DNA from: Coffea arabica
Taxonomy: Eukaryota; Streptophyta; Magnoliopsida; Gentianales; Rubiaceae
Assembly (NCBI RefSeq): GCF_036785885.1
Contig: NC_092314.1
Span: 13,785,638-13,849,637, forward strand
Length of the DNA: 64,000 bases
Direction: 5' to 3'
The translations under genes were made by a program, and so were the position numbers. Positions 3,687 through 54,335 of this stretch are shown here, piece by piece (the first letter of the stretch is position 1; each line of letters opens with the position of its first letter). A model generated the notes under the pieces. That model worked only from the letters and a program-made list of their open reading frames with translations. It was not told where the DNA came from and made no database searches.

Positions 3687-5356
3687 CTAAACTGAAGTAG
3701 ATGGAACCAACACAAGGTGATTTGCAGCAAAGAAATGACAAACAGGGGAAGTTCCTCGTTCAATTCCAAGCACACGGAAGGAGATGTGATCAGGGCTCCA
3801 ATGAGAGGTATCCATGTGACAAACAGCAATAGCTTCAACCCTGTCACCATTTTCACCATTCAGGGAACCTTTATACACGCGACTCTCACTTTCTTGAGAG
3901 TGACAATAGAAAACTGTATAAGGGTAAGGCATGGTATGACATGCCACCATCTTTGGTGCTGAAATTCGTACAGGAACTTTAATTATTGTGTACTTTTGTA
4001 GTCCGGCAACTGATCTCGTGAGGTGAACTGTTGACAGAATATTGACGTTTTTTTGCAACCCAAGTGTCCCTCTGGCAAAATTAAGCATGGACTCAAAGGA
4101 TGTAGAACAAAATTTCTTCTCTCCTTTAATGGGCTTAGCTTCACATTTTCTTAGCGTATCTTCCATGGCTTTGGCCTGGGGAGATTCTTGAGAGAAGGGA
4201 AAGAATTGAAGAAGTTTTGGGAATTCCACTGAGGAAAAAGGAATTTTGTCTGCTTTTGCTTTGGGCAGCAATACAAGAGATGACAAGGGATCTGTTTTGG
4301 GGAATTTGGTGAACATTGTTTTTCCTACCTTTAAATCCTCCAATCTGAAGAAACCTAAGAGTGTTGGATCCATATGATCTAAGTGGGATGATGTGTGTCC
4401 TGTTGGATCCGTATGATATAGGTGGGATGATGTATGTCCTGTCCCTGTTATGTCCTGATTGCCACCATTATGCTTATCGTATATCCATGCTTGATTACCA
4501 ACTGCATTAATTTTTCTGTCATAGTCCATTGCATCATTTATTCCATTGTGTATCTCCTGATTATCACCATTATGTTTATCATGTATCTCCTGATTACCAA
4601 CTGCATCATTTTTCCTGTCATAGATCCACACCTGTTTGTCCACTGCATCATTTATCCCATTGAAGATCCACAGCTGTTTGGCCACTCCATCATATCTCCT
4701 ATCATAGATCCATGCCTGATTATCTACTGCCTCATTTGTCCCATCGTAGATCCACAGCTGCTTGTCGACTCCACCACTTTTTCCGTCATAGATCCACGCC
4801 TGATTATCCACTGCATCAATTTTCTTATCTATAGCCCTCAATTGATTGCCAATTGTGCTGTCATCTTTCTTGTCATATATCCAGAATTGATTGTCCTGTA
4901 CCCCAGCAACTCCGCTAGACTGTAGAACTTGGAAATATTTTTACAGTAAGTATCAATTCAGTTTTTCAAGCATATGTTAACAGCAAAGCGACACCAAATG
5001 ATGAAGCAGGGGAACAAAAAAAAAATCAATCGAAATTGAGCACATGTACAAGGACATTATCAATTTTTCCTTTGCTTCTTTCTCAACGAAATCAGAATTT
5101 TGGGCTCAAATTCCTAGAACACAGTAGAAATCCGACAGGAAACGATGTAACAATTAGACTAGGTATATTACCATCTCACAGTTAGAGAACCTACCACGTC
5201 AAAAAAACTTGGGCAAATTTAAGGCGCATATTCATATTAGCTAGCAGACTGGCAAATGAAGTAGAATAATTTAAGAAAATGTTGTAGCATGTTTTATGTT
5301 ACCAGCAGAAACAACAGATGAAGGAAGAGAATCAAAGAAGCAAATCTGGAATCCAT
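3687..5356 (-). CDS. BURP-domain protein with signal peptide and QxWIYD repeats; candidate fused burpitide precursor and cyclase
   Basis: Two exons can be modelled on the minus strand: exon 1 at 5356-5303 (ATG at 5356-5354, 18 residues, hydrophobic secretion signal MDSRFASLILFLHLLFLL, then a GT donor) and exon 2 at 4919-3687 after a 'ctacag' acceptor. Both junctions are phase 0, and the predicted protein is 428 residues. Residues 29-166 hold seven Q-x-W-I-(Y/F)-(D/N) units, mostly on a 14-residue period. A doubled GHTSSHL.H.DPT element follows, then the BURP domain from about residue 208. The BURP signature is complete: CH-X10-CH-X26-CH-X25-CH at residues 345-413, ending 15 residues before the C-terminus. 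Established: BURP domains bind copper through these CH motifs, and some are autocatalytic peptide cyclases that crosslink Trp or Tyr in repeated core peptides of their own chain. Inferred: this gene is such a precursor acting in the secretory pathway. The alternative is an RD22/USP-like structural BURP protein. Confidence 0.88.
4476..4889 (-). repeat. Tandem 14-residue (42-bp) repeat encoding QxWIYD units
   Basis: Within exon 2 of the BURP gene. Units read QFWIYD (residues 29-34), QAWIYD (58-63), QLWIYD (72-77), QAWIYD (86-91), QLWIFN (100-105), QVWIYD (114-119) and QAWIYD (161-166). The five from residue 58 to 119 are spaced exactly 14 residues apart. Degenerate units (QLRAID, QEIHD, QEIHN) fill the gaps. 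Each good unit is preceded by Asn or Lys and usually followed by a spacer containing an (A/G)V(D/G) element. Trp and Ile are invariant in the seven units, and the residue after Gln is variable. Confidence 0.9.
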
Positions 5357-6934: not shown

Positions 6935-8512
6935 ATGCCTCCTCCTCGCAAGAATCTTGTCCTCAAGATTGGAATTGAGGAAACTTCTCCCTTATCATCA
7001 CAACATCCTCCCAAGTTGCTTCTGCAGGTTCAATTCTCCACCATTGAATTAGCCATTGAGTTACAGGAGCATTCTTTCTCTTAATCATCCTCCTGCCTAG
7101 TAATGCCACTGGCTCCACTCTAATCTGCCCCCTTTCATCCGTGTCTGGCAGTTGCAGGATAGGGGTTGCCTTGTCTCCTAGTTTCTTCTTCAGCAAAGAT
7201 ACATGAAATATAGGGTGTATCTTTGATGCAGCAGGCAGTCTGACCCTGTAGGCCACCTTTCCAATCTTCTCTTCTATCAGGTAGGGGCCAAAGTACTTAG
7301 CAGATAGCTTGGTATTGTTCCTGATCATCACAGTTGATTGTCTGTAAGGTTGTAATCGCAAGTAAACCCAATCTCCTACTTGGAACTCCCTTTCACTCCT
7401 GTGCTCATCAGCATATTTCTTCATCCTCTCCTAAGCAGCCTTCAGGTTATATTGCAATAGTTCATCCATTTTCTTCCTGTCTCTCATGCAGTCTTCCACT
7501 ATTGCCACTTTAGCTTGCATATAGGGGCCAAAGGCTAGCTGGGGGGGGGTTTAGTTCCATGCAAAGCCTTGAATGGACTCATTTGTACAGCAGTGTGGTA
7601 GGTAGTATTATACCACCACTCAGCTAAGGATAGCCATGAGTTCCACCTCTTAGGTTTCAGGTGAGTCATACACCTGAGATACATTTCCAACACCTGGTTT
7701 ACCCTTTTAGTTTGACCATCTATCTAGGGGTGGTAAGCTGTGCTCAGGTTCAGTCCTGCCCCCAGTAGTGTGAATAACTCAGTCCAGAACTGGTTGATAA
7801 AGATCTTATTTTTGTCTAAGATCATACTCTGAGGTATGCCATGTGGCTTACTGACATGGTCCAGGAAAACTCTGGCTACCTTAGGAGCATCAAAAGGGTG
7901 AGACAAACTCATGAAGTGAGCATACTTAGTAAACCTGTCTACCACAACCAGGATAGTATCTCTCCCTTCTGATTTAGGCAATCCTTCAATAAAATCCATG
8001 GTGACATGACTCCAAGAGTATTGTGGTATAGGGAGGGGTTGGAGTAGACCTGGATAAGCAACACGTTTATCCTTACATTTCCTGCATGTATCACACTGTA
8101 GTACTGCTGTCTTGATTTCCTTGAACATACCTGGCCAATGGAATAGTTGTTTAGCCCTCATCCAACTGACCTGTATGCCTGAATGCCCTCCTAGTTGTGA
8201 ATCATGAAGGCCAGAAATGAGTTTCTTCCTTATTTCATCCCCTTGTCCTACTACAAGTCTCCCTTTGTATCTCAGTATTCCGCTCTGGTAGTTGTAATCT
8301 GAGCTCTGTCCTAGAGATGCTAGGATTCCTCTGATGAGGTCTTGAGCCCAGTCATCACCCTAGTAGCTCTCCATTACCTCCTTCATCCACTCTGGTATCA
8401 CTGTGGTAGTCACTGTACACTCAGCGCCTCCTCCCTTCCCTTTCTGGAGAGAGCATCTGCTACCACATTTTCTTTTCCCTTCTTGTAACATATCTCATAA
8501 CTTAGCCCCATT
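6935..8512 (-). pseudogene. Ty3/gypsy pol fragment: RNase H end, integrase, chromodomain-type tail
   Basis: Minus-strand frames, from right to left. About 8440-8512 reads YEICYKKGKENVVADALSR, the conserved junction after RNase H. 7724-8161 holds the integrase core (HWPGMFKEI, CDTCRKCKD, VTMDFIEGLPKSEGRDTILVV). 6963-7424 holds the integrase C-terminal region (VGDWVYLRLQPY, KLSAKYFGPYLIEEKIG, IHPIFHVSLLKK) and a chromodomain-like end with the WW..EPAEATWED motif. Frames are broken by stops and shifts between these blocks (for example 7425-7723, where a G9 run lies near 7540). Gag, protease and most of RT are missing because the element is cut at 8512/8513 by LTR-like DNA. It is a dead remnant. 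Confidence 0.85.
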
Positions 8513-14731: not shown

Positions 14732-14785
14732 AAGGCATAATCACACTTCGCTGGATAGAAATGTAAAATGGCCTACCCAATTTTG

Positions 14786-15049
14786 TGTTGGATTGAATTG
14801 TAATTGGTATCAGATAAGATTCGTGAATATTCTTAATGTTTGAATGTATATCAATTAGAGATATGATAGGAATGATTGTTATCTATTAGTGGTTGATAGA
14901 TATCTGTTAGTGGTTGATAGGTGAGAGGATAATCAATGACCTTCTTGTGTAAAGCCTATAAATAGGCATCGGTACCATCATTAGTCTGCATCAGAGAAAT
15001 AAAGAAAATCTTCCCAAAACTCTCTCTCTAAATTTCGTTCCTTCAAACA
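14786..15049 (+). repeat. 5' LTR of the copia element
   Basis: Starts TGTTGG and ends CAAACA. It contains a TATAAATA box at 14957-14964, the likely core promoter of the element, and two nearly identical 'gttatctattagtggttgataga' / 'tctgttagtggttgatagg' words just upstream. It is identical to the 3' LTR by eye. Confidence 0.97.
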
Positions 15050-15061
15050 TGGTATCAGAGC
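15050..15061 (+). promoter_or_regulatory. Primer-binding site for initiator tRNA-Met
   Basis: TGGTATCAGAGC lies immediately after the 5' LTR. It is the standard complement to the 3' end of plant initiator methionine tRNA used by copia elements. Confidence 0.95.
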
Positions 15062-15120
15062 AGGGATTCTAGGATCTCTGCTCCAAAGTGTTACTCTGAT
15101 AATTTCTTCAACAACCAGCC

Positions 15121-18033
15121 ATGGCCGAATCGTCTACGCTCACGGACGGTAGGAAAGGACAAGCTGACGTAGTTCTAGAGGATTTTGCCACTCGGATGAT
15201 GGAAGTCCTGAATAGCTGCCAGAAGTCTACACCGAGCATGGATTCGTCTTCGGCTCAGATCGGCATCAAGTTGGATGATACCAACTATGCCTTATGGTCC
15301 CAAATTGTCGAGATGTATATCTCAGGGAAGGACAAATTGGGGTATATTAATGGTGAACTCCCTCAGCCGTCACCAACAGATCCAGCGTATCGACGGTGGC
15401 GAACTGAAGACTCTATCGTGAAAGGGTGGTTGATAAATAATATGGCTCCATCCTTGATCGGTACCTTCGTTCGTTTTCCCACAGCAAAAGCGGTATGGGA
15501 TGCTATTGCTACCACATACTTTGATGGAACCGATACATCCCAACTGTATGATCTGAGGCGGAAGGTGACTAGACTGAGACAAGCTGGTGGGCTGATCGAA
15601 AAGTACTACAACGATTTGCAAGGTTTGTGGAGGGAGATCGATTTTCGTCGGCCGAACCCGATGGAATGTGCTGCCGATATCAGCAGGTATAATTCTCTCA
15701 TACAGGAAGAGAGAGTCTACACTTTCCTCGATGGGTTAGATGACCGACTGGACCAGATTCGCAGTGATGTTCTGCGGATGAAACCATTTCCAACAGTAGA
15801 AGAGGCATATGCCTATGTCCGACGAGAAGACAGCAGACAATCGGTGATGATAACAGGGGGAGACCACTCAATCGGCTCTGTCATGGCTTCCAAGGGAAGG
15901 AAGAATGAGCCGATTTTAGTACCCCGAGCCGAGATGCCAACTGAGGAAGTTAATTGTGCCCACTGCAATAAGAAAGGGCACACACAAGATACGTGCTTCA
16001 AGTTGCACGGATATCCAACATGGTGGAAAGAGCGCAAAGGGCGAAATTGGCCAGCTGATCGACTGAATGTTGCTGGTCAGAACGGAAAGGTGGCCGTTGC
16101 AGTTGCTGATATCAATATTGCCCAGGTGCACTCTACGTCTTCTACCAATCAGCATCAAGGTATGAACTCCTCACATCGACGCGATAGTAATTGGATTGTC
16201 GATTCAGGAGCCACTGATCATATGACCTATGATCCAACTGACTTCTCATCCGTAACTCAACCACGACGGTTGAAAATTTCCAATGCTAATGGTGTGCAGT
16301 ATCCAGTTACAGGAGCTGGAACTGTTACTTTATCTCCGTCTTTATCTCTACCGAATACTTTATTGATTCCCTCACTGTCAAATAAGTTACTATCAGTAAG
16401 TCAAATAACTACTGATCTTAACTGTATGGTACTGATGTATCCAACCTTCTGTCTTCTTCAGGAAATTCTCACAAAGGAGATAATCGGTCGTGGTACTAGG
16501 AGGGGGGATCTATATTACATTGATGATTTCAGTATCGGTAGAGCCAATCAGACAAGGAGTACCGATAACACCAAAGAACGAGAGATTCGACTGTGGCATC
16601 AGCGACTAGGACATCCTTCTTTTGGGTATATGAAGCACCTTTTTCCAGCACTTTTTTCGAGTATCAAAACTGCCGATTTAAAATGTGAGACCTGTGTATT
16701 AGCCAAAAGTCATAGGGCCTCATATCCTGTCAGTTTGAATAAGTCGAATACACCTTTTGCTTTAGTACATTCTGATGTTTGGGGACCATCCCCGATCACT
16801 TCATCTACTGGAGTCCGTTGGTTTGTAACTTTCGTAGATGACTGTACTCGAATGACTTGGTTGTATTTGTTAAAACATAAGAATGAAGTTCTTGATATTT
16901 TCAAGTCATTTTGTTCCATGATTCATACACAGTTTTCAGCAACAGTCAAGATTCTTCGATCTGATAATGGTGGTGAGTATGTTAATCGGCCACTACAAGA
17001 GTTCTTTAATATCAATGGTCTTATACATGAAACATCATGCACCCAAACTCCACAGCAAAATGGAGTAGCTGAAAGAAAGAATCGACATATCCTTGAAATA
17101 GCAAGAGCATTACTGATTGGTGCCCATGTTCCTCGCCGATATTGGAATGATGCAGTCACAACAGCAGTCTATTTATTGAATAGACTGCCTTCAAAAGTTA
17201 TCAACTTCCAGACACCGCTGCAAGCACTGTCTCAACATTTCACTCTACCATCGGTTCTAATGCTTCCGGCACGGGCGTTTGGTTGTGTAGCATTTGTTCA
17301 TCGGCACAAGAATCAACGAAGTAAGCTTGATCCCTGTGCTGTTCGTTGTGTCTTCGTGGGGTATGCAGTGCACAAGAAGGGCTATCAGTGCTATGATCCA
17401 ACCACTAGCAAGATGTATGAAACCATGGATGTTACATTCTTGGAGTCGGACACATTTTTCTCCTCGGCATCCAATTCTTCCCTTCAGGGGGAGACAAGGG
17501 ATACAGAAGAAAAGAATTGGCCAGGATTAGCGTGGCCGTGCTGTCCCACTGATTCTGTCGGTGAAGCTACTGTTTCTCCCATTGCCGAGCCCACGGAGCC
17601 CACTGTCGATGGAACCGATAAAGCTGCTGATGAAAGTACGGTTGCTAGCTGTCCTATTGATTTTGTCCGTGGAGCCGTCGATGGAGGAGCTGCCGATGGA
17701 AATGCTGATGCTACTGATGAAATTGTTGATATAATCCCTCCCTCTTCAGTACCTAACTGCATGTCTCCTGAGAATGTTCCTGAGGTAAGTACTCCTGCTG
17801 ATTCTAATGTTATGTTAGATACTACTGCAAGATATGTATTACCTGACAGATTCAATCGGGGTAAGCCACCGACTCGGTACTCTCCAGAAAGTCATGCAAA
17901 GCGATCAAAGTATTCCATTGCCAATTATATGTCCACTCACAGGCTATCTGAACCTCTTGAAGCCTTTGTGAATAATGTGTCGTCAACTGACATTCCAAAA
18001 GATGTGCATGCTGCTTTCAAAGATCCAAACTGA
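15121..18033 (+). CDS. Copia gag-protease-integrase part of the polyprotein, ends at an in-frame TGA
   Basis: 970 residues from ATG 15121. Order: gag with a UBN2-type region (residues about 48-250, DDTNYALWSQ), CCHC zinc knuckle from residue 279 (C-X2-C-X4-H-X4-C), aspartic protease DSGATDH at about 361, GAG-pre-integrase LWHQRLGHPS, and integrase with catalytic D-D-E at about 552, 614 and 650 (HSDVWG, SDNGGE, VAERKN). The TGA at 18031-18033 splits a frame that otherwise continues into reverse transcriptase in the same register. Related copia proteins read through this position, so it looks like a nonsense change. As it stands the copy cannot make the full polyprotein from one frame. Confidence 0.95.
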   Translation: MAESSTLTDGRKGQADVVLEDFATRMMEVLNSCQKSTPSMDSSSAQIGIKLDDTNYALWSQIVEMYISGKDKLGYINGELPQPSPTDPAYRRWRTEDSIVKGWLINNMAPSLIGTFVRFPTAKAVWDAIATTYFDGTDTSQLYDLRRKVTRLRQAGGLIEKYYNDLQGLWREIDFRRPNPMECAADISRYNSLIQEERVYTFLDGLDDRLDQIRSDVLRMKPFPTVEEAYAYVRREDSRQSVMITGGDHSIGSVMASKGRKNEPILVPRAEMPTEEVNCAHCNKKGHTQDTCFKLHGYPTWWKERKGRNWPADRLNVAGQNGKVAVAVADINIAQVHSTSSTNQHQGMNSSHRRDSNWIVDSGATDHMTYDPTDFSSVTQPRRLKISNANGVQYPVTGAGTVTLSPSLSLPNTLLIPSLSNKLLSVSQITTDLNCMVLMYPTFCLLQEILTKEIIGRGTRRGDLYYIDDFSIGRANQTRSTDNTKEREIRLWHQRLGHPSFGYMKHLFPALFSSIKTADLKCETCVLAKSHRASYPVSLNKSNTPFALVHSDVWGPSPITSSTGVRWFVTFVDDCTRMTWLYLLKHKNEVLDIFKSFCSMIHTQFSATVKILRSDNGGEYVNRPLQEFFNINGLIHETSCTQTPQQNGVAERKNRHILEIARALLIGAHVPRRYWNDAVTTAVYLLNRLPSKVINFQTPLQALSQHFTLPSVLMLPARAFGCVAFVHRHKNQRSKLDPCAVRCVFVGYAVHKKGYQCYDPTTSKMYETMDVTFLESDTFFSSASNSSLQGETRDTEEKNWPGLAWPCCPTDSVGEATVSPIAEPTEPTVDGTDKAADESTVASCPIDFVRGAVDGGAADGNADATDEIVDIIPPSSVPNCMSPENVPEVSTPADSNVMLDTTARYVLPDRFNRGKPPTRYSPESHAKRSKYSIANYMSTHRLSEPLEAFVNNVSSTDIPKDVHAAFKDPN

Positions 18034-19530
18034 ACTCAAGCAATTAAGGATGAGATGTCGGCATTGCAAAAAAATGACACGTGGACTTTGGTCCCATTAC
18101 CAGATGGGAAGAGGACGGTGGGATGCAAATGGGTTTTCACAATCAAGTATAAGGCTGATGGATCAATCGATAGATATAAAGCTCGTCTCGTGGCTAAAGG
18201 ATACACTCAGACCTATGGCATCGATTACCAGGAAACTTTTTCACCAGTGGCTAAATTGGATACGGTCAGAGTACTGATATCTCTTGCGGCAAATTTGGAT
18301 TGGCCATTGCATCAGTTTGATGTGAAGAACGCTTTCCTGCATGGGAATCTGGAGGAGGAAGTCTACATGGATATCCCACCAGGGTGTTCTACAGTATCGA
18401 AAACAACTACTGTGTGCCGATTACAGAAAGCATTGTATGGACTCAAACAGTCACCACGTGCTTGGTTCGGCCGTTTTACGCTAGCTATGAAGAAGTATGG
18501 TTTTCAGCAGAGTAATGCCGACCATACTCTTTTCCTAAAATATCGGCATGGAAAGGTAACTGCCTTAATAATTTATGTCGATGATATGATTATCACAGGC
18601 AATGATGAAGAGGAAATCTCCAAACTACAAAATCAGCTGGCGGCTGAATTTGAAATGAAGAGTTTAGGGAATCTCAAGTATTTCCTGGGAATTGAAGTGG
18701 CGAGATCGGCACAAGGCATCGTCCTATCCCAGAGGAAGTATGTACTTGATCTGTTGGCAGATGTTGGGCTCCTGGATTGCAAACCTGCTGACACGCCAAT
18801 TATGCTAAACCACAAGTTAGGAGAATATCCATATCAGAAACCAACTGACAAAGAGAGATATCAAAGATTGGTCGGTAAGCTGATCTACTTGTCACATACT
18901 CGGCCCGATATTGCCTATTCTGTTAGTGTGGTCAGCCGATTTATGCATTCACCCAGTAATCGGCACATGGAAGCTGTGATGAGAATTCTTCGGTACTTAA
19001 AGGGTTCTCCTGGGAAGGGTCTCTTATTTTCCAAAAATGGTCATCTTAATATTGATGGTTACACTGATGCCGATTGGGCAGGAGATGCTACCAATCGAAA
19101 GTCAACCTCAGGTTACTTTACATTCGTCGGTGGTAATCTAGTTACTTGGAGAAGCAAGAGACAAAAGGTGGTAGCATTATCGAGTGCAGAAGCTGAATTT
19201 AGAGGCATGGCTAAAGGTATGTGTGAGCTTCTGTGGCTCAAACGGTTGATGGCCGATATCGGTTTTTCTCCTATATTTGAGATGAACTTATTTTGTGACA
19301 ACAAAGCTGCTATCGATATCAGCCATAACCCAGTTCAACATGATCGCACTAAGCATGTTGAGGTCGATCGGCACTTTATCAAGCAGAATCTTGAAGAAAA
19401 AATAATACGGCTTCCGTTTGTGAGATCTGAAGATCAACTAGCTGATATACTCACAAAAGCCGTGCCGACTAAGGACTTTTACAACTCACTCGGCAAGTTG
19501 GGCATGCATGACATCTATGCACCAACTTGA
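18034..19530 (+). pseudogene. Copia reverse transcriptase and RNase H part, downstream of the in-frame stop
   Basis: Same frame as the upstream gag-pol part; the first internal ATG is at 18055. It shows reverse transcriptase motifs (TFSPVAKLDTVR, DVKNAFLHGNLEEEVYM, LYGLKQSPRAW, catalytic YVDDM at about 18577) and RNase H motifs (YTDADWAGD, RKSTSGY, SSAEAEF, CDNKAAIDIS, HVEVDRHFI). It ends at TGA 19528-19530, overlapping the polypurine tract. No defect other than the stop at 18031 is apparent. Confidence 0.93.
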
Positions 19531-19537
19531 GGGGGAG
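19529..19537 (+). other. Polypurine tract of the copia element
   Basis: GAGGGGGAG directly before the 3' LTR start (TGTTGG at 19538). It is the expected plus-strand primer. Confidence 0.9.
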
Positions 19538-19801
19538 TGTTGGATTGAATTGTAATTGGTATCAGATAAGATTCGTGAATATTCTTAATGTTTGAATGTA
19601 TATCAATTAGAGATATGATAGGAATGATTGTTATCTATTAGTGGTTGATAGATATCTGTTAGTGGTTGATAGGTGAGAGGATAATCAATGACCTTCTTGT
19701 GTAAAGCCTATAAATAGGCATCGGTACCATCATTAGTCTGCATCAGAGAAATAAAGAAAATCTTCCCAAAACTCTCTCTCTAAATTTCGTTCCTTCAAAC
19801 A
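19538..19801 (+). repeat. 3' LTR of the copia element
   Basis: 264 bp, TG...CA, matching the 5' LTR throughout, followed by the target duplication TTTTG. Confidence 0.97.
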
Positions 19802-20204
19802 TTTTGTATAGATTGAAAAACAAAATATATGAAGTAATAAAAATAGTAATTTATGCAAAAAATAGTATTCCGATTATTAGTAATTATTAGTAAAATTCAA
19901 AAAGGATGGATCCTTAAGCTTAGTAATTTGTTTTGCATATGGAAACCGTTTGCAAAAGAAATCGCAATGACTAAAGAAAGAGGACATCAAAGTTACCAAA
20001 GAAAACACTTCAAACATTCACTATCAAAACTGGATAAGTGCAGTCAGTAGCTTAACATTGATTTTGTGGCTAGATATCTATTATAAAAGCTTGACTCACT
20101 AAACAATTGCAACAACTTGCTAACATCAAACTTCCAGTGCTTTGGAAACATTGTTCCAACCAGAACTCAACCTATATTAAGAACAGAAGATTCTGTATCA
20201 ATAT

Positions 20205-21067: not shown

Positions 21068-24000
21068 TCAAATTTGTCCAACCTTCAGTTTTGGTGCATG
21101 TCCCACACCATATTTTTGGGGGTCAGAATTGAACTCTTCCATGTTAGGACACTTCTCTAAAACCACTTGTACCAGGGATGGTAGATCAACAGAAAAAGAC
21201 ATTGCACAGAGTCTATTTATGTTAGACATGTCTTTGATCTTCATGCTGTATAGTTCCGGCAGTGAAATTCTGTTGTCTTCAGTGTCTTCTTCTCCTTCCT
21301 CATCATGGCTTATTAGTTCAACCATATCCTCACAGCTGCTAATGTTTATTTCTTTGAGCTGTTGAAGATATCGAGCCTCAGCAACTGAAAACAGCTTTCT
21401 CAGCCTTGAGCATTCACTCACCTCAATAATCCTGAGGTTTGGAAAACAATTATGCTGATATTGATCAACTGATACATCTGGCCTTTTCTCGACAATGCTT
21501 TCTAACTTGTTGCACCAGTTTATCTTAAGAACTTCCAGTTGCGGTAGATTTTGAGCAATGGAATATGGAAAGATAACTTTTAGGCTCCTGCAGCTGCTGA
21601 GCTCAACCACTGTTAGTTTTGCAAGGCGCACTGAAGGAGGAAGTGGTTTTACCCCTCCTTTCCATATGGTTCTCAAACTCTCCAGACCGCGTAACCTTAT
21701 AATTCTAAGATTAGACAGAAGGAACTGTTGATTCTCAGAACTAATGTTGCCAAGGTCAAATATACTCGACATTTGCTTGCACCATGTTACTTCAACTTCT
21801 TCCAAACTCAGTAGCCTCTGGAGTAATGTGGCAGTGATTGCTACCCACATCCGCTTACAACTTTGAAGTTTTAAAAACTTTAACTTGTGCAGGGAACCAA
21901 CTGGAAGTAATTTTGGACATATAACGAACAATTCGTTCATAAGTTGAAGATGTAAACTTTCCAAAGCTGCCAAGATTGCAGGGGCATCACTTGCAGATTG
22001 GTTCACGGATAACAAAAACGAGGTTTCCATACAAGCAACGACCTTAAGATATCTTAAGTTGTTTAAGGTCCCCAGATCAACATCTAAAATATTCCTTATC
22101 ATTTCATCATACAAGCAGAAAAGTCTCAAATCTTCTGTGTTCTGAAGTATGTCCTTCACTCCTTCAGGTATTGAAGTCTTAATTTCTCGGAGTGACAGGC
22201 TTCTTGAGTTTGGGTAACATGTCACTGAATCATACCCTTTACCAATAACTATCTCAAATTTTTGTACGTTAGGTATATGCAATTTTCTGGGAACCGATTC
22301 AGGATCGGATACTTGAATACATAAAGTAGTCAAGTGGGACAAGGATGTTATTTCTGAAAGACATGCTTTACTTGTGTCTTCAACCATCCCTTGAATCGCC
22401 CACTGATGAAAACTCTCCCACATGTAGAGTTCTTCTAATTGACACAAACGCGATAACAGGGTTGCCGGAACAGTCTTGAGCTTTTGGCAGAAGTTGAGGT
22501 CTAACAACCGCAGGTTGACTAATTCTCCAATCTCCTTTGGTAATTCTTCAATATCACATCCATAGAAGCTTAGAACCTCGAGTCTTTTTAATTTTCCAAG
22601 GACTGCTACATCATCCAACTTGCAGTGATTTAAATGCAAAGTCCGAAGGTTCACCAAGGCTTCAAACGAGGAGGGAAGTTTGAAGGAACTGGACAGCATT
22701 GAGGTCCATTTGTCTGGTTCAAAATAGTGATTTAGAGAGCGAGCACCAATTTTTTCACTTAAATCCAGCACCCTGAGCGTTGGCATCCCTAGAAAGAATC
22801 CCTCTGGTATTATCTCAAAAACCTCATTTTTCCCCAACAACAAAATTTCGAGCTTGGGACAAATTAGGCGCTCAGGAAGTGACTGAATATGATTAGTCAT
22901 CAGAGAAATGATTACTGCATTGCGTTCAAGAGTCTCCTGATTTGGCCACTCCTTCAAGCCAAGACCTGCTTTTATGACGAAACCATGTTCCCTTGTAGAT
23001 GCAATTGATATGGCAAAGTCACGAACCATATCATGCATTATTACAGAATCTTCCGTACTGCTGTCCAGAAGCAAGCAACAGTCAGTAAGGTTTCTGATTA
23101 TCCATCGTGTTTCTCTTCTTGCTTCCTCCATTGTGTCTACATCTGTAAACACTCCTTTTCCCAGTCCATATCTGGCTATGTCTTCAATTTTTATATCATG
23201 ATCCTCAGGAAACAAGCAACACAATAGAAAACATTCTTTAGCGTCCTCACTTTGCAGCTGATCGTAGCTCAACTTTAGGCATGAGAAAATGTCTTTTTCT
23301 TCATTGCAATTGATGTTCAATGGTTTGGACTTCTTTAGTTGCTGAAGTGCAGCTTTCCAAAGCTCCAGATCTTTGTTTCTCAGTGCTCTCCCAACCGTTA
23401 CAAGTGCCAATGGGAGCCCACAACATTCTCTAGCAACCTTCATGGCGACATCATCTTGTTGGGGAGAAAATGTATCAGCCAATGACCCTGCGTTAGTTTT
23501 AAACAGGTTCCAGGATTCATCATCTGACAAGAGTCTCAATGGAATTTCCTTTGTTTTTCTAAGCCCCATAGTGCTGCATAGATTTCTTTGACGAGTAGTA
23601 ATCAGAATCTTACAACCCTTGCCCTCAAAATTGACAGGAATTCCAATTTCTATGAAATTAACAAAATTCCAAACATCATCCAATATAAGCAGGATTCTTT
23701 CCTGGGTAGTTAGCCTTTCAAAGAGCCGACCAGCTCTTCCCATTTCACTCTCCTCCTGGAAATATAGACCTAACATATCCCCAATTCGACCTTGAATTTT
23801 TCTCACATCTATATTTCGCGAAACAACAGCAAAAATCACCTTATTGAAAAGGCCACTAGTTTCAGCCATCCTACCAATTTCCTTTGCCAGAGTCGTCTTA
23901 CCTATGCCCCCCATCCCGTACATTCCTATGATTGCACAGTTGTCATCCTGCAATTCATCAAAGATCTGATCCACAGCTTCTCTTTGGTGGGAAATAATCT

Positions 24001-24895
24001 GATTTACCAATCCTCTCCGCTGAGAAATGATCTCACTAACTGTTTTCTTTTGCAGGACAACATTCTCATTTACAGTTGGTTTACTTGCTCCCAAAGTGAC
24101 AGCTTCAGCTTTTCTTTTCACACTGGTTACTGATGCACTTGCTCCTGAAGTGGCATCTTTAGCCCTGCTTTTCTCATTCATAATTGATGTGCTGGCTATT
24201 GAAGTGACACCTTCAGCCCTGCTTTTCTGCTTCAGAGTTGATGTGCTTGCTCCCGAAGTAACATCTCCAGCCCCGCTAACCTCATTCAGAATTGATGTGC
24301 TTGCTCCAAAATTGACATCTTCAGACCTGCTTTTCTGATTAAGGGTTGATGTGCTTGCTCCTGAAATAACATCTTCAGCTCTGCTTTTCTCGTTCGTGGT
24401 TGATGTGCTTGCTCCTAAAGTGACAAGCTCAGCCCAGGTTTCAGCAGGTGTTAAGTGCTCTGGAAGGATTTCAATATTCAGGGGAGGCATTGTGATGTAT
24501 ATATCTTCTCTGGGCTGCAATTCTTGAAGTTCCATTACAATCGCTGTTTTTTCGATTGCCTCCTTGCTCAACTGATAACGCGCAATCCAGTCAGGAAAGC
24601 AACCTCTCAGACATCTCTTGTCCAAATTAACTTTGTGAATTAACGAATCTGTTTCAGCTATGGTGCTCTCAACAGCTTCCGACCATTTGCGAACAGTAAC
24701 CTTGATAACTTTGCCATTTCTTTTGGCTTCATTGATAGACTGCTCTACATCCATTCTCATGTCATTCAACTCCTCAACTTGCTCTTGCAGGTTCTTTACA
24801 ATCTTACGATAATCATAGAGATAGCTCAGTCGATTTCCGACTGGAGTTGTCAGATAATATCCAATCCTTGCGAATATGGTAATAATAGCATCCAT
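21068..24895 (-). CDS. CC-NB-LRR disease resistance protein (RPS2/RPS5, At4g27190-like)
   Basis: Single-exon frame of 1275 residues, ATG at 24895. Residues 1-150 form the coiled-coil type N-terminus seen in the RPS5/At4g27190 clade (RIGYYLTTPVGNRLSYLYDY, VRKWSEAV). Residues 161-280 are an unusual tandem repeat. The NB-ARC follows: P-loop GMGGIGKTT at 327-335, kinase-2 ILLILDDVW, RNBS-B KILITTRQ, GLPL as CCGLPLALVTVG, RNBS-D with CLFPEDHDI, and MHD as VIMHDMVRDFAIS. Leucine-rich repeats run to the C-terminus (for example LRTLHLNHCKL, LRLLDLNFCQKLKTVP). All nucleotide-binding motifs look intact, so it is probably a functional intracellular effector receptor. No integrated C-terminal decoy domain is seen. 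Introns are not needed. Confidence 0.96.
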   Translation of the reverse strand: MDAIITIFARIGYYLTTPVGNRLSYLYDYRKIVKNLQEQVEELNDMRMDVEQSINEAKRNGKVIKVTVRKWSEAVESTIAETDSLIHKVNLDKRCLRGCFPDWIARYQLSKEAIEKTAIVMELQELQPREDIYITMPPLNIEILPEHLTPAETWAELVTLGASTSTTNEKSRAEDVISGASTSTLNQKSRSEDVNFGASTSILNEVSGAGDVTSGASTSTLKQKSRAEGVTSIASTSIMNEKSRAKDATSGASASVTSVKRKAEAVTLGASKPTVNENVVLQKKTVSEIISQRRGLVNQIISHQREAVDQIFDELQDDNCAIIGMYGMGGIGKTTLAKEIGRMAETSGLFNKVIFAVVSRNIDVRKIQGRIGDMLGLYFQEESEMGRAGRLFERLTTQERILLILDDVWNFVNFIEIGIPVNFEGKGCKILITTRQRNLCSTMGLRKTKEIPLRLLSDDESWNLFKTNAGSLADTFSPQQDDVAMKVARECCGLPLALVTVGRALRNKDLELWKAALQQLKKSKPLNINCNEEKDIFSCLKLSYDQLQSEDAKECFLLCCLFPEDHDIKIEDIARYGLGKGVFTDVDTMEEARRETRWIIRNLTDCCLLLDSSTEDSVIMHDMVRDFAISIASTREHGFVIKAGLGLKEWPNQETLERNAVIISLMTNHIQSLPERLICPKLEILLLGKNEVFEIIPEGFFLGMPTLRVLDLSEKIGARSLNHYFEPDKWTSMLSSSFKLPSSFEALVNLRTLHLNHCKLDDVAVLGKLKRLEVLSFYGCDIEELPKEIGELVNLRLLDLNFCQKLKTVPATLLSRLCQLEELYMWESFHQWAIQGMVEDTSKACLSEITSLSHLTTLCIQVSDPESVPRKLHIPNVQKFEIVIGKGYDSVTCYPNSRSLSLREIKTSIPEGVKDILQNTEDLRLFCLYDEMIRNILDVDLGTLNNLRYLKVVACMETSFLLSVNQSASDAPAILAALESLHLQLMNELFVICPKLLPVGSLHKLKFLKLQSCKRMWVAITATLLQRLLSLEEVEVTWCKQMSSIFDLGNISSENQQFLLSNLRIIRLRGLESLRTIWKGGVKPLPPSVRLAKLTVVELSSCRSLKVIFPYSIAQNLPQLEVLKINWCNKLESIVEKRPDVSVDQYQHNCFPNLRIIEVSECSRLRKLFSVAEARYLQQLKEINISSCEDMVELISHDEEGEEDTEDNRISLPELYSMKIKDMSNINRLCAMSFSVDLPSLVQVVLEKCPNMEEFNSDPQKYGVGHAPKLKVGQI
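24056..24415 (-). repeat. 54-bp tandem repeat in the NLR linker (18-residue units)
   Basis: Six in-frame units of exactly 18 residues at protein positions 161-268, consensus GASTSxxNEKSRAEDVxS, then a partial seventh (GASKPTVNENVV) to 280. Divergence rises toward the NB domain: units 1 and 2 are closest, units 5 and 6 most changed. Composition is Ser/Thr/Ala with charged KSRAED, so it is likely disordered. It is not part of the standard CC or NB fold. Confidence 0.95.
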
Positions 24896-25660
24896 TTCAG
24901 GTCTCTATGTTTAGAATCTGAGTAGCCAGAAAAGGAAAAAATGGGCTCAAAACACTAACAATCTCAGTTGTCGTACTAGAAAGATAGAGATTGCAAACAG
25001 GTGCACAATTGTTCTCGGATCATCCATTTCAGGTCTCTATGAAGTATTCATTTTTCTCATATTTGTTTTTTGATATCGGTGTATGATTGATGATGTAATT
25101 TACATTTTAATGAAATTATAATGTTTTATGAAAAAAAAAAACGAAATCATGTGGCATATTAAAGAGCCATGGTCATATCCAATGTGTGCCACTTAAATTA
25201 AAGATGATAAAGAATAATGCATGATTATGCAAGAAAACCCCCATGACTTGCAAGTAGGATTCTAGACCAAATTTACCTAATTATTTCCCATTTTATATTA
25301 TATAATACTTTCCACCAGACGAAGATAATAGATCTTTTCATTGTAAACATCTTTTTTTTTTCCCTTTTGGGTTCAAGAATGAAAGAGAAGTATCCTTAAA
25401 CAATGTCAAGAACGTAATATTAAGGAAAAGGGAAGTATATTTATTTTTGTTTTTTTGTTATGAAGAAAATATAAAGCGTTTCACAACAAAATATAAAAAA
25501 AAAAGTCAAAAGTTAGATTTTTGATTTATTATTTTCATCAAAAGAATTAAATTTTTAGGTACTAATAATTAGCTTGTAAGAACCTAAAAGTTTGACAGAG
25601 ACCAAGAAAATAAAGAAAAAAAAAAGTGTGACAAAGGACCTAATAACCCCAAAGAAGCGG
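24896..25660. other. Upstream region of the NLR gene, no other gene seen
   Basis: AT-rich. The phrase 'catttcaggtctctatg' at about 24893 recurs at about 25025, a short direct repeat spanning the NLR start. It should hold the NLR promoter and 5' UTR; no motif could be assigned with confidence. Confidence 0.35.
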
Positions 25661-38140: not shown

Positions 38141-40525
38141 ATGGCAACCAATAATCAAATCACCACTATATTTATTCCTTTTTCTACTTCTTCTTCAACT
38201 TTGCAAAATTTAATTTTGGTCCATGATAAAGTGAGAAAATATATACTTTCATGTTCATCTGTTAATTTTTTATTTATATTTTGCAATTTATTACCATTTC
38301 TTATTTACATTTTAATAAATTTACAGGGAACAAAAATTCAAGCTATCATGTTTGATGATATCATCACAAGATTTGGAAATAATTTTCAATACAATAAGTT
38401 GTACTTACTTTCAAATGGAAGTGTGAATAAAACAAACACTTCGTATGCAAATGTCAACAATGAGATTGAATTGGTCCTACGAAATTACACTCACATAAAA
38501 AAAGACCGTTCTCATGTACCAACAAGGAACATTATCTATGCACCTATCGAGTTTGAAGAGGCAAAAAATCCATACTTTATCAACAAATGAATAGGTAACA
38601 TTTTCTTCCAAAATCAATGAAATTTCTTCTGCAAAACTTCTAACAATTTTCTACACTACTAGGCTGAATCATTGTACTTATTTACATTCAAAATAAACTT
38701 ATTTTCTACAGATGTCATTGGAGTGAGTTGTTACAAGTATGGCTCAAATATTGGTGCTTCCAAAAAGAAAAGGTGGATACACTCACAAGAGAGAAATCAC
38801 CATAATAAACAAAAAGTAAGATTACTTTTTAGCTTGCTTTCTTACTATATAAATGTTTGAAGCTCCAAGCATTAAAAAAAAAACATACGTCCAGCATCAC
38901 TTTTTCCTTTATATGTAGAGTGTTCATAATTCGGCCACCTAATACATTTTCTATTTCACAACTTCGCAGTCATTACTTCATGCCTAACATTTTTATATTA
39001 AAATATAAAAATTATCCTCACACTATAGGTTTGCCACTATGAAAATCATCTTATGGGGAGATATGACAATTAATGAAGCTCAATTTCCACAAGAAGTTGC
39101 ATCTCAAAAGCCAGCAATTGCAGCAATACAATTCCAAATGTTTGAATACCAAGGTAAAAATATCAATAGTAAAAATAAAATAACATTATAATTACAACTT
39201 AACATTTTAAAATATTCTAGGAGAGTTTCATCTGTCAACAACATTCATGTCAACTCTACAAGTCAATCCAAATTGCAAAGAAGTTTTGAAACTTCAAAAG
39301 TGGTATGAATACAATTTTTTTAGACCTTTTTTTTTTATACAAATTGAATGCCTTGAATTACAATACTGAAAATTTATATAGGATTACTACAAAGAAAAGT
39401 GAAAATCTTGAAGCTGCAATCTTGAAGAACAAGATGGACTTGGCCAAGCACATTCAACTCAAAAATATTATTCATCAACAACATTCATTGAAAGAGGTAA
39501 ATTTATCGCCTCATAAATCTTCAATTTAGAAAATTCCTCGAAAAAAAAAGCCAAACATCATAAAAACAATAACAAATAACTGCTTTTTGCAGCATGCTTT
39601 CTGCATTTCCAACGCAATTGTTACCGATATAGAGAACAAAGCCGAACTATACTATAATGCTTTTAAAGGATGCAGCACCAAAATTATCAATTTCGAAAAA
39701 AGATGCAGAATGCCCCAAATGCAATTATCCAACAAAAGATTTTACACTAAGGTAAGTCACTCAATTAAATACATGACATGAAAGCTAGACTTTAAAATGA
39801 CAAACTTGAAAAGCACAGTTAACAACTTAATATCATTTCCAAAATAGGTACAATATAAGGATGGAAGTCGTCAATGGACAAGATGTGGCAACAATAATAT
39901 TATTTGAAGACTTGGCAACTAATTTTATTGGATGCCCAATACAAGAATATATAGATAGCACTACATCTTTCAAGGTAAGTTCCTAAAAATTATTAAAATA
40001 ATAAACACATCAACTCTTAATAGTTAAGCATTCAATTTAAACCTATCTGATTTACAAATACTGAAAACCGAACGGGACAAGGAGAAATCAAAGTTGTATA
40101 AGAAAATGATTGCCGCAAAGCATAAGGAGTTCAAATTCCTCATCAAGCTTAATAGGATTGGGCACTCCTCTCATGGACATCCATCAATGGTAGCAATAGC
40201 ATTCGAGCAACTACCAAATACAAATAAACAAGAAGATGCCACTCCATCTATTGCATCTGAACAACATGCTCGGCAAAGCATAATAAAAGAGAAAAATTCA
40301 AAGGTGATTGAAATTGACGATGATGTTCCACTACAGTCCTTCAAAACCAAAAAAGGGGGAGCAAGAAGTAATGCATCCAAGCTCAAAAGTCAATTGAAAA
40401 AGAAGATAAAAGTCGAGAAAATTAAAACACTAATGATTACTATTTCACATTTAATATCTTCTCTTTTTCTTCGTCTTACATTCAATAAGATTGCTTTGCA
40501 TTGCTTACTTTACAATATTTTGTAA
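38141..40525 (+). pseudogene. RPA70-like gene carried by a Helitron (copy A)
   Basis: Plus-strand exon series. 38141-38230 starts with an ATG. 38327-38590 (GTKIQAIMFDDIITRF, YLLSNGSV) ends in a stop before a donor. About 38712 gives DVIGVSCYKYGS, about 39029-39153 MKIILWGDMTINEAQFPQ, 39221-39301 EFHLSTTFMSTLQVNPNC, 39382-39497 an alpha-helical linker, and about 39594-39750 the zinc-ribbon segment (AFCISNAIVTDIENK, YNAFKGCSTKI). About 39849 holds the next OB fold (IRMEVVNGQDVATIILFEDLA), and the tail runs from about 40062. This is the layout of an RPA large subunit with DUF223/OB folds. In copy A six A at about 39696-39701 shift the frame in the zinc ribbon; copy B has five. An early stop in exon 2 affects this copy too. 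The part from 39224 on is duplicated at 49472. It lies inside a Helitron ending at 40653. Confidence 0.7.
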
Positions 40526-40625
40526 CATGCAATTCCCACCCTTGCTTCTATTCCCAACTCTACATTACAAAGGTAAACTCAATATAAAAACAGAACAAAA
40601 TGATATAACTACATATCATCCAACC

Positions 40626-40653
40626 ACGTGCAACGCACGTACGGTATCACTAG
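40626..40653 (+). other. Helitron 3' terminus (copy A)
   Basis: ACGTGC (40626-40631), loop aac, GCACGT (40635-40640) makes a perfect 6-bp hairpin. Nine bases later comes CTAG (40650-40653), followed by T. This is the canonical Helitron 3' end (hairpin, about 10 nt, CTRR, host T). It fixes where the Helitron stops and host sequence begins. Confidence 0.85.
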
Positions 40654-40654
40654 T

Positions 40655-43600
40655 GATTTAGAAAAGCCTCCAGCCTAGGCCACTTTGACTGCAAGCTCTT
40701 CAGAAGTGATCCAATTCCTTGCAAGTTTCCAGTCTGTATAATATCACTGGTGGGGGAAAAACATCAATGAAACTTCGAGTAAACTATCGAAGCTGACACT
40801 TGAAAAGCTAAACATAAAAATTGTATAGTCAGGTATTGAATGTAGCAAACTAGGGAAGTTGCACAATCTGCAATCATGAAAGCAGCAGAAGTTCTTTTGT
40901 TTCACTACTACTTGGTTCAATTGCCAACCAATATGAAAATTAAGCAACCCTTTACCTGGAATAGTGCCACAAATTCAGCTTTCTAGATAAAGTCCATATG
41001 CAAAAACCATGGATATCAATTGTCAGTTGTCACCCTAATGTTTTAGTCTAAGAAAACTTTTACCAGACCATTGCAAGCATTCGATTTCAAGTATTTAAAA
41101 GCTGTGGTTATGAACTTACCTAGCATCAAATTGCTTGATTTCGTCAAGCATGCTGCTTGCTTCACCGAATTGGTTTACACTACCACAAGGAAGAAATTTC
41201 TTTACATTCAGTCCAGCAGTTAAAAAGCTTGTACTTTCTTCCAATTCCTCCTGGAAACGAGCAGCATAAAAGAGAGTTGTTAAAGCTATTACATGGAAGT
41301 GCTTGTATGATTATTAAACACAAAATCCACAAAGCAGCTGAGCAGACCTAAGCAATCCATTTGTGATTACCTTAAATTGAGAAACATTAGAACAGCTTGA
41401 TCACTCTTCATGTTGTCTTTTCTCTGTTGATATTTGCACATCAAAGATTTTTTCAGAAAGGCCTGAGTACATCTGTGGGTTCCTTTCAGTTCCACTGCCT
41501 GTGCTCATTTTCTGATCTGGTGCCGCAGAAATGTCAATTGACATGAGAGACTCAGCATTATGAACAAGTCCTTCACACAAATTCGGAGCATTTGCTTCAA
41601 CCATAGGCCTTTGCTGATGGTAACTTCCTTGCTTTCGGAACAAGTTTCTCGTGATGTCATCAATTCTTGGTGTCAAAGCTGTGTCAATGATGATTGCAGG
41701 ACACGCAAATTTTGGACTATTTTCTCTCAAATGCACAATCACAAGAGGATTTCCAATCCTTCTGAATGCTTCTACAGTTGCATTTAAACTAAACCAATCC
41801 TGAGTCAAATTAAGCTTTCTTCTTGGCCTAAGTGCCTGAATGAATGGCATTGGCAGCTGCGAACTAATATGAGACTGATCAAGCAGATGAGAAAGAACAT
41901 TAGAATACTTGCCTGAGTTCAAGTGGAGCAAGCACAAGATAACCACAAGCCTTAATGCTAGTAGTGGATGATACTGATCTACATCAAATTTTGATTTTGC
42001 AATCCATGATGCTGTCTCCCGCTTATTAAAAAGAAACTGTTCAACCATCATAACAACAGAATCAAATATGATTTCAGGAGACAACTGCGTGTCAGCTACT
42101 GAACTCACATCTGGATACATGTCTGCTTTAAGATAAACAAGCCATTCCACAAAAGAATACTTTGTTGTGAAAAAGTAATCCTTGGAATGAAATACAAGGA
42201 GTAGCAGGCGTTCAACAAGATATATTAAACAATCAGGTGATACATAGTCATATGACCTCCAATTTGCAAGATAAGTATCTCTCAAAGCTTCGTGGAAGCT
42301 ATCAATCAGTGAAAACTTCTTCCAATCTTCAGCTGAAGTATTTGATGAAGGATCACCCAAGGATCTTGATTCTGTTATCCCAGAATGCCTCAATGAAGAT
42401 ACTTGCAAAGAATCAATGAATGCTCTCCACGAAAAATTCTTTTCAAATCTTTTTGCTATCTTCATGTACAGATCATCTGTTGGTTTTCCAGATCCAAGCC
42501 AAATCATTACCACCCTCCCAATTTGACCGTAGGTAAGGTCACCCTTGTTACTGATATTGTCAACAATAACCTCTTCAAGTAGACTCCGTGAGAGCTCAGT
42601 TTTCCTTAAAGAGATCATGTTTTCCACCAATGATTTGCAACAGTCTAGTGGAAATACATATTTAAAGTACGTAATTGGTGGCCGCAGGAAATTTTCTAGC
42701 CTCCTTTCAACACTAGCATTGAATTTGAATGATTCAGTCAAAAATTTCATCAATTGATAGATATCAATGAGGCAAATGCTTTGGCAAAATAGGGAGAATG
42801 ACTCCCTTATTGACAACTTATAAAGAGCTTCAACAGTGTCAAGTACCTTCAGGCTGACAGAAGCTACTTCAGCCTGGCAATGACTCAGAGCAGCAGATGC
42901 AAATTTTCGACCATCAATGGATACCTGGTTCTCGCTTAGCTGCTTCTGCTTGAATACAGAACCAGTTGTTTTCACCCATTCAGCATCTGAGTTCAACAGT
43001 ATATATGCTACATTTGAATTGATGACCTGCCTCCTCACACCAAAATAGTTCAAACAGAACTCACCATATTCAAGCCATTCATTATCATCTGGTTTTCCCA
43101 CTGTTTTGAGATATTGCATGATATTTGACATGTTCCTTTTCCACATATTCCAAAAGTGCATGAGTGAACCAACGGAGACGTGGTTTAGTGAAATCTTATC
43201 TTCTGAATGCTTTTTCATATCAACTTGCAATTCATCTTCCCATTCAAACTTCCGTGTTGTACAATCAAGATGAGCATCCAGGATCCTCCGGATAGATATC
43301 AATTCAACTGTCAAATTTTTACATAGCTCTGAATAAGTGAGAGACTGAAGCAACTCATGCAAGCTAATATGCTCATGTGCCAAAACTTCAACCTCTCTGC
43401 GAATGCGTTCATAGAACTCATTCGATTCTTCCTGTGCAAATGACATAGCTTTCTTTAATAGCATTTGTTTCTGTCGAAATGGCCTCAAGGGCCAACCTCT
43501 ATTTCCAGTCACCCATAGAGAGCGATGAAGCACAAATGAAATGATGAGTAAGGATGCTTCCTTGAGATGGCCTGCCTTCCCAAGCAGGTCTGCCTCCCGT

Positions 43601-44154
43601 GGCAGATCCCCTCTCAACTTTGCTATTTCTATAGCTTCCGCGAAGTTTCCGAGTTCTTCTTCCAACAACAAAAGTTCATCAATACAGCCTATGCTTTTCA
43701 GGAAGTTACGTCTGGAATCCATAGAAAGGAAAGCTCTAACATATTTTGTCATGGATTTAAAATCCTTGAGCTTATAATAACTCAAAGCGCAACTCTCCAA
43801 GAACTCTTGTTCAATTTTTTCGATTTCCTTTTCGCCAGGAGCATTCTGTTTCCATTTTGTAATGTATTGCCTTCCCAATTCAAAAAGACTCCCCTGAGTG
43901 CACACAGACAAACACTCCAACAAGTAATTGCCATCAGCATAAGCCTTTGCTGCAAGTTCATAACTTCTAGCCGAAGTGAAACAATCACCCGCTTGTTTAG
44001 GATCTCCACATTTATCGAAGTAAATTCTTCCTGAAGCAAGATTCAAGAGGTTGAACTTCAAGACTATGCTTTTCCAGTTAATTGTTTGCACAAGTAAAAT
44101 ACCATTGTCAAACCAAAGATAACTACAAAAAAAATAACCAGTTCCTCAACAACA

Positions 44155-44187
<33 letters not shown>

Positions 44188-49471: not shown

Positions 49472-50774
49472 AGTTTCATCTGTCAACAACATTCATGTCA
49501 ACTCTACAAGTCAATCCAAATTGCAAAGAAGTTTTGAAACTTCAAAAGTGGTATGAATACAATTTTTTTAGACCTTTTTTTTTATATACAAATTGAATGC
49601 CTTGAATTACAATACTGAAAATTTATATAGGATTACTACAAAGAAAAGTGAAAATCTTGAAGCTGCAATCTTGAAGAACAAGATGGACTTGGCCAAGCAC
49701 ATTCAACTCAAAAATATTATTCATCAACAACATTCATTGAAAGAGGTAAATTTATCGCCTCATAAATCTTCAATTTAGAAAATTCCTCGAAAAAAAAAAG
49801 CCAAACATCATAAAAACAATAACAAATAACTGCTTTTTGCAGCATGCTTTCTGCATTTCCAACGCAATTGTTACCGATATAGAGAACAAAGCCGAACTAT
49901 ACTATAATGCTTTTAAAGGATGCAGCACCAAAATTATCAATTTCGAAAAAGATGCAGAATGCCCCAAATGCAATTATCCAACAAAAGATTTTACACTAAG
50001 GTAAGTCACTCAATTAAATACATGACATGAAAGCTAGACTTTAAAATGACAAACTTGAAAAGCACAGTTAACAACTTAATATCATTTCCAAAATAGGTAC
50101 AATATAAGGATGGAAGTCGTCAATGGACAAGATGTGGCAACAATAATATTATTTGAAGACTTGGCAACTAATTTTATTGGATGCCCAATACAAGAATATA
50201 TAGATAGCACTACATCTTTCAAGGTAAGTTCCTAAAAATTATTAAAATAATAAACACATCAACTCTTAATAGTTAAGCATTCAATTTAAACCTATCTGAT
50301 TTACAAATACTGAAAACCGAACGGGACAAGGAGAAATCAAAGTTGTATAAGAAAATGATTGCCGCAAAGCATAAGGAGTTCAAATTCCTCATCAAGCTTA
50401 ATAGGATTGGGCACTCCTCTCATGGACATCCATCAATGGTAGCAATAGCATTCGAGCAACTACCAAATACAAATAAACAAGAAGATGCCACTCCATCTAT
50501 TGCATCTGAACAACATGCTCGGCAAAGCATAATAAAAGAGAAAAATTCAAAGGTGATTGAAATTGACGATGATGTTCCACTACAGTCCTTCAAAACCAAA
50601 AAAGGGGGAGCAAGAAGTAATGCATCCAAGCTCAAAAGTCAATTGAAAAAGAAGATAAAAGTCGAGAAAATTAAAACACTAATGATTACTATTTCACATT
50701 TAATATCTTCTCTTTTTCTTCGTCTTACATTCAATAAGATTGCTTTGCATTGCTTACTTTACAATATTTTGTAA
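49472..50774 (+). pseudogene. RPA70-like gene of the Helitron, 5'-truncated (copy B)
   Basis: Begins mid-exon (FHLSTTFMSTLQVNPNC) at the duplication edge. The zinc-ribbon exon keeps an open frame here (CSTKIINFEKDAECPKCNYP, then TKDFTLR), unlike copy A, which has one extra A. Downstream OB-fold exon (about 50098) and tail are as in copy A. Lacks the 5' exons, so it is not expressed as an RPA protein from its own start. Confidence 0.7.
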
Positions 50775-50902: not shown

Positions 50903-50903
50903 T

Positions 50904-54301: not shown

Positions 54302-54335
<34 letters not shown>

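Follow-up and report, generated by a model that had tools for sequence, protein, structure and literature searches.

The window analyzed here, a stretch of 64,000 nucleotides of Coffea arabica (contig NC_092314.1), carries on its minus strand a two-exon gene (5356..5303 joined to 4919..3687) encoding a 428-residue protein with a BURP domain, which to judge from its sequence is most likely a precursor-cyclase of the cyclopeptide-alkaloid type within the BNM2 subfamily. Exon 1 (5303..5356) opens with the ATG at 5356, encodes an 18-aa hydrophobic, signal-peptide-like segment, MDSRFASLILFLHLLFLL, and is followed by the donor GTAACA at 5302. The intron (4920..5302, 383 nt, GT-AG, phase 0) closes with the acceptor CTACAG ending at 4920, and the frame stays open once joined, running through the repeats, the BURP domain, and the stop in exon 2 (3687..4919). 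The C. eugenioides orthologue P0001, the nearest protein among the matches listed (86% over the whole query), is modeled in the database with the same start and exon join. Along the protein, the order is signal-like exon, seven Q-x-W-I units, a spacer containing a repeated unit of 39 bp, and the BURP domain, in agreement in outline with the original prediction; exon 1 was judged signal-like by eye, and the model of the Cinchona relative has a helix at residues 3–20. No second BURP gene was detected in the 64-kb window by tblastn. The existing database prediction of the locus (P0002, 280 aa, a 100% match beginning at an internal Met) seems to be truncated, with exon 1 and six of the seven units lost; since no more than the final 280 residues are retained in it, a search for cores based on entries of this kind would detect one unit of seven.

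Repeat Array and BURP Domain

The seven units, all on the minus strand, are QFWIYD (4872..4889, residues 29–34), QAWIYD (4785..4802, residues 58–63), QLWIYD (4743..4760, residues 72–77), QAWIYD (4701..4718, residues 86–91), QLWIFN (4659..4676, residues 100–105), QVWIYD (4617..4634, residues 114–119), and QAWIYD (4476..4493, residues 161–166). Each has Trp as the third residue, counted from Gln, and WIYD is found in six and WIFN, without Tyr, in unit 5, so that a four-residue, Tyr-ending core, xWIY, is present in six of the seven. One decayed QLRAID and two QEIH are interspersed among the units, and tandem units of 42 bp (14 codons) were identified by TRF at 4589–4824, giving 14-residue steps for part of the array. 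Six WIY were observed versus a maximum of two in 100,000 shuffles of residues 21–185, none of which gave six. Across the seven units, the W, I, Y, and D codons showed 27 silent and 12 changing pairwise differences, all 12 contributed by unit 5, and the Gln codon 10 silent and no changing ones, versus 26 silent and 129 changing at the other nine unit positions (Gln left out). As pairwise codon counts are not independent, they are taken as a strong indication, not as a test statistic, that the W-I-Y core is under selection within the gene.

The BURP domain (PF03181; 3705..4352, minus strand; Pfam E = 1.4e-74) contains CH motifs at 3936..3941 (residue 345), 3900..3905 (residue 357), 3816..3821 (residue 385), and 3735..3740 (residue 412). 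Their spacing is exactly X10, X26, and X25, as had been predicted, which fits the BURP pattern CHX10CHX25-27CHX25-26CH, and the FF dipeptide is also present. The four conserved His within the BURP fold are a feature of burpitide cyclases, and the repeated aromatic cores N-terminal to the domain on the same chain correspond to the fused (type II) layout, described as a BURP protein with repeated aromatic cores upstream (PMC8672867; here and below, statements on published systems refer to the available portions of the cited papers). The canonical Trp eight residues past the last CH is Leu in this protein, as in 27 of the 117 other rows compared (P0002 being one of the 27); these rows include the fragments P0002, from the window's own gene, and P0050, from a Solanaceae-clade gene, and P0133, without the four-CH pattern, was dropped. 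The first Cys of an otherwise general CX11C pair is kept in the window protein and in Cinchona, and the Pro five residues past the first CH His (H+5) is kept in three Rubiaceae proteins.

AlphaFold2 modeling of the window protein (84 rows) gave strands E38-45, E54-59, E66-73, E82-87, and E96-101 of exon 2, in blocks averaging 45–54 pLDDT, and that of the Cinchona relative (44 rows) gave pLDDT values below 50 throughout residues 21–217 of its array. The structure comparison was a second look at the Foldseek matches and covers model residues 187–401 for most rows. Several other signatures were looked for. PF10950 was not among the Pfam matches of the window protein at E up to 1, a KDF/EFEP-type recognition sequence of split precursors was absent from the N-terminal region by pattern scan, and the YWx7PMP consensus, described for BURP proteins that SST searches had recovered, occurred in none of the 139 proteins compared (see below). 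A ricin-lectin-like QxW reading was rejected, with E-values of 0.98 and 0.22 falling below the cut-off. The repeats of a Datura protein matched the Pfam family OB_NTP_bind (E 1.3e-12), the match recurring with the array.

Relatives of the Protein and Spread of the Core

Two full-length searches (the best 120 of 659 and the best 120 of 683 matches) yielded 138 different proteins, or 139 with that of the window. W[IM]Y was found upstream of the BURP domain in 17 of these, the window included, and at least twice in 16; the fragments P0002 and P0050, additional to the 17, have one each. Carriers among the matches listed belong to Coffea, Cinchona (10 units), Solanum (tomato and potato kin), Lycium (goji), Withania, Anisodus, Datura, and Capsicum, further carriers grouping among these in the tree. 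The motif is absent from the other 120 proteins, the named ones mostly from other eudicot families, with the Solanaceae relatives P0004, P0086, P0125, and P0126 among them. Paralogs differ at this place: P0126, a potato-group protein from S. commersonii with 14 cluster members, shows YLIY, YLKY, and YLEY instead of the W-I-Y cores, YLIY and YLKY following the usual cyclopeptide-alkaloid pattern xLxY, and P0004 (Solanum commersonii) has LFNY, VFNY, AFNY, and LFKY at the core position. P0004 also contains two BURP domains in one protein, with xFNYK or xFKYK units ahead of each, and could be a merged gene model.

The Rubiaceae units are mostly DNQ-xWIY-D, with x being A in 10, F in 7, L in 4, V in 4, and Q in 1 (n = 26). 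Those of 15 Solanaceae proteins are mostly Y-FWIY-N/D, with x being F in 35 and L in 11 (n = 55), and are mostly spaced by 38 or 41 residues, the polar linkers between them being unlike the Rubiaceae ones. Of the units, 23 of the 26 from Rubiaceae but none of the 55 from Solanaceae have Gln ahead of the core; Gln therefore falls outside the core common to both families, and the pyroglutamate formed from a core Gln, proposed originally as part of the product, is no defining feature. Over both families, Tyr is kept in 75 of 81 units versus 68 of 81 for Trp; Trp is present in 24 of 26 Rubiaceae units, and among the 55 Solanaceae units, 10 have Arg in its place while keeping the Tyr. No other 4-mer is as widespread in the two N-terminal sets as FWIY (3/3 Rubiaceae and 14/15 Solanaceae proteins), and FWIY[DN] forms the first unit in 3/3 and 9/15 proteins, respectively.

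The relatives among the matches listed are mostly BNM2A-like by database name or unnamed hypothetical proteins, and several bear the name USPL1; Z. jujuba BNM2A P0068 aligned at 57% over 64% of the query. These database names of the nearest relatives would place the gene in the BNM2 subfamily, and the clustering with RD22/USP-type proteins that the original prediction had set against itself was not what was found, in a tree with AhyBURP as its sole verified USP sequence and no RD22. A first tree comprised 84 of the 139 proteins plus AhyBURP, and a second comprised 82 rows, without AhyBURP, P0002, and P0050, the rows being hand-picked to span the list. In the 82-row tree, the repeat proteins of Rubiaceae are monophyletic (100/100) and group with repeat-less relatives including Coffea P0013 and Cinchona P0020 (99/98), and the Solanaceae repeat set forms a separate clade (100/100). 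A single clade of Rubiaceae and Solanaceae repeat proteins was not rejected (p-AU 0.165), and convergence is therefore not claimed. A constraint grouping the three Rubiaceae repeat proteins with four Rubiaceae rows lacking repeats was rejected (p 0.00135), from which nothing was drawn, the set holding the long-branch P0113. Because FWIY[DN] recurs as the first unit in both families, we think that one ancestral core may have been amplified separately in each, two origins also being possible.

Predicted Product and Competing Explanations

The gene probably encodes a fused (type II), self-crosslinking burpitide precursor-cyclase. The precursor would be secreted, and its C-terminal BURP domain would bind two coppers via the four CH histidines and use O2 to oxidize, autocatalytically, the Tyr of each x-W-I-Y core upstream in the same chain. 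The phenol oxygen of this Tyr would bond to the C-beta of the Trp two places earlier, giving a 14-membered ring of the cyclopeptide-alkaloid type, on the pattern of FPIY, FLIY, and ILWY. Proteolysis between N and Q and after D could then release cyclic (Q)xWIY peptides in which x is F, A, L, or V; plausibly, the protease would be a vacuolar one specific for Asn/Asp, matching the Asn ahead of Gln and the Asp or Asn that follows Tyr.

Published systems offer several points of comparison. ZjuBURP of Ziziphus jujuba, from the BNM2 subfamily, cyclizes FPIY in trans by joining the Tyr O to the C-beta of residue 2, the repeats of its precursor also encode FLIY, and an artificial precursor-cyclase fusion works (PMC12871766). 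The coffee gene resembles ZjuBURP and its precursor, ZjuPrec, in subfamily, by name, and in its repeated four-residue cores of F-x-I-Y form; however, its core and cyclase are naturally in one gene, residue 2 is Trp instead of Pro or Leu, and the recognition sequence of split precursors is absent. In ILLY, FFFY, and ILWY, the bond made by CamB1 is between Tyr4 and residue 2 (PMC12186524). The fused cyclopeptide-alkaloid cyclase SkrBURP of Selaginella kraussiana likewise has repeated Tyr-ending cores ahead of BURP in the same chain, but these are VLFYPSY and FLLYPY and the host is a lycophyte (PMC11253845, compared by description). The arabipeptin system ArbB2/ArbA2, also from Coffea arabica, shares with the gene its genus, the CH spacing 10/26/25, as counted from the published residue numbers, and the Tyr-O to C-beta chemistry that is predicted here, whereas it consists of split genes with the core FLWGY, a 17-membered ring, and precursor recognition through Phe(-7) (PMC12186524). 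AhyBURP of peanut (8SY2/8SY3), in contrast, is of the USP subclass, with its core QPYGVYTW inside the domain and a lyciumin-type bond.

Lyciumin-type cores follow the pattern QPxGxxxW. No QP occurs anywhere in the protein, and the stephanotic acid/moroidin reading (QLxVW, Trp at position 5) was likewise rejected, as no Q-x-x-x-W is present. The difference from lyciumin and moroidin cores noted in the original prediction thus holds, and so does the fused type II layout (as in PMC8672867), but the lyciumin/moroidin frame has been replaced by that of the cyclopeptide alkaloids, whose four-residue cores FPIY, FLIY, ILLY, FFFY, and ILWY are the right comparison. The motif was expected to be unlike published families, and it was not encountered in literature searches by motif, which reached few subscription papers: WIYD with BURP was not found, and the matches for WIY with BURP and for FWIY were irrelevant by title and abstract start.

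The geometry of ZjuBURP on FPIY and of the CamB1 ring suggests that xWIY would close from the Tyr4 O to the C-beta of residue 2 (Trp), as a tentative assignment of the exact bond. A somewhat less likely variant within the fused-precursor explanation is another bond, either to the Trp indole (N or C) or, in a Q-x-W-I-Y core, between Tyr and x in a 17-membered ring. The near-invariance of Trp in the Rubiaceae (24/26 units), the joining of Tyr5 to Leu2 in arabipeptin FLWGY (PMC12186524), and the ability of BURP cyclases to use Trp (PMC8672867) are consistent with it, but Ala occupies x in 10 of the 26 units from Rubiaceae, Trp gives way to Arg in 10 of the 55 from Solanaceae with the Tyr kept, and in the known cores of Trp type, QLLVW and QPxGxxxW, both absent here, the Trp comes later. 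Since Ala is tolerated at x and Tyr is better kept than Trp, Tyr as the oxidized residue with residue 2 as acceptor is favored over a bond to x.

For what follows crosslinking, the most serious alternative would be the fate of the beta subunit of polygalacturonase 1 (PG1-beta), in which 14-residue repeats starting with FxxY precede BURP and are retained in the mature protein, every identified Phe of FxxY being at -2 Da (PMC5313189). By analogy, the coffee BURP domain would oxidize repeats that remain in a long mature cell-wall protein, with no release of small peptides. Compared by description, the two proteins share 14-residue repeats ahead of BURP; the Rubiaceae unit often has this length, and FWIY, found in unit 1, is itself an FxxY. 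The other six coffee units, however, start with A, L, or V, x is Phe in just 7 of 26 Rubiaceae units, the Solanaceae units are mostly spaced by 38 or 41 residues with polar linkers, and the relatives are BNM2A-like; retention of PG1-beta's kind, with its -2 Da on Phe, is considered unlikely.

It is more improbable still that the units undergo no modification and serve as an aromatic repeat for structure or binding, with the BURP domain acting elsewhere or not at all. The strands modeled over several units, though at 45–54 pLDDT, and the weak lectin match (E 0.98) would agree with this, but the cleaner Cinchona array stayed below 50 pLDDT throughout residues 21–217, the Solanaceae units are isolated within polar linkers, and all CH histidines are retained. 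A BNM2-type cyclase acting mainly in trans on separate PF10950 precursors, its own array decaying, is very improbable: characterized members of the subfamily do work in trans (PMC12186524, PMC12871766), the H+5 Pro is kept in the three Rubiaceae proteins, and some units have decayed, but W-I-Y is held against a changing background within the gene, and scanning the window by pattern for PF10950-like recognition motifs gave none, though a partner could lie elsewhere.

Several observations also weigh against a fused, self-crosslinking precursor. Tyr is absent from unit 5, and several units have decayed, also in Solanaceae (W to R, Y to H). C. eugenioides P0001 has Tyr in place of the first Cys of the CX11C pair (the residue before EAKPIKGEKKFC), and the H+5 Pro, which corresponds by counting to P242 of ArbB2, is Ala in 17 of 18 Solanaceae proteins. 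The ArbB2 change P242A cost ~90% of activity (PMC12186524), and the Ala in Solanaceae could be a sign that recognition has changed or that activity has been lost. The protein has no Phe(-7) motif of the kind through which split precursors are recognized, the modeled strands span several units of the window protein at low confidence, and the AlphaFold2 output, returned without coordinates, gave no evidence for a core in the copper site. The Cinchona repeat region as sole query matched only P0003 (itself) and P0001 at E up to 10; the link between Rubiaceae and Solanaceae therefore rests on the common BURP domain and the FWIY string. AhyBURP, the only verified fused cyclase placed on a tree with the gene, has a very long branch, and P0068 is at most a putative ZjuBURP. 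The literature searched, within its accessible portions, yielded no earlier example of a crosslink at the C-beta of Trp, and the chemistry is a prediction.

Wider Significance and Neighboring Loci

What appears to be new is the core, its natural fusion with a cyclase within the BNM2 subfamily, as far as the literature examined goes, and its spread over coffee kin and nightshades. In its widest form, the proposal is that coffee, cinchona, and nightshades share naturally fused BNM2-subfamily cyclases making a new cyclopeptide class with the Tyr phenol ether-linked to Trp C-beta (FWIY and relatives), FWIY having outlasted nearly all surrounding sequence and been recast as YLxY in potato relatives; this is doubtful as a whole. 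If true, a core family and probably a new crosslink pair (Tyr-O/Trp-C-beta) would be added, and the BNM2 subfamily, whose characterized members work in trans according to the available text of the cited reports, would gain a natural cis-acting arrangement. Cyclic peptides of exact mass would also be predicted in coffee, cinchona, tomato, and goji, searchable in existing metabolomics files. For the cyclic (-2H) forms, the calculated [M+H]+ values are 626.2973 (FWIY), 550.2660 (AWIY), 592.3130 (LWIY), and 578.2973 (VWIY), and with pyroglutamate 737.3293 (QFWIY), 661.2980 (QAWIY), 703.3450 (QLWIY), and 689.3293 (QVWIY).

Elsewhere in the window, Gypsy-like polyprotein remnants, named by the look of the sequence, lie upstream of the BURP gene (6963–8359, minus strand). 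A retroelement at 14785–19802 (plus strand), copia-like by eye, has identical 266-bp ends and a coding region split by one stop (976 + 498 aa). The segments 39224–46466 and 49472–56604 form a tandem duplication with an offset of 10.1–10.2 kb and 99.8–99.9% identity, which is either very recent or an assembly effect; an ORF overlapping it (55967–57268) has a UvrD-helicase match, and a 914-aa ORF is present there without a match. A single 1278-aa ORF at 21068–24904 (minus strand) combines NB-ARC with an RPS2-like LRR, as in a disease-resistance-type gene.
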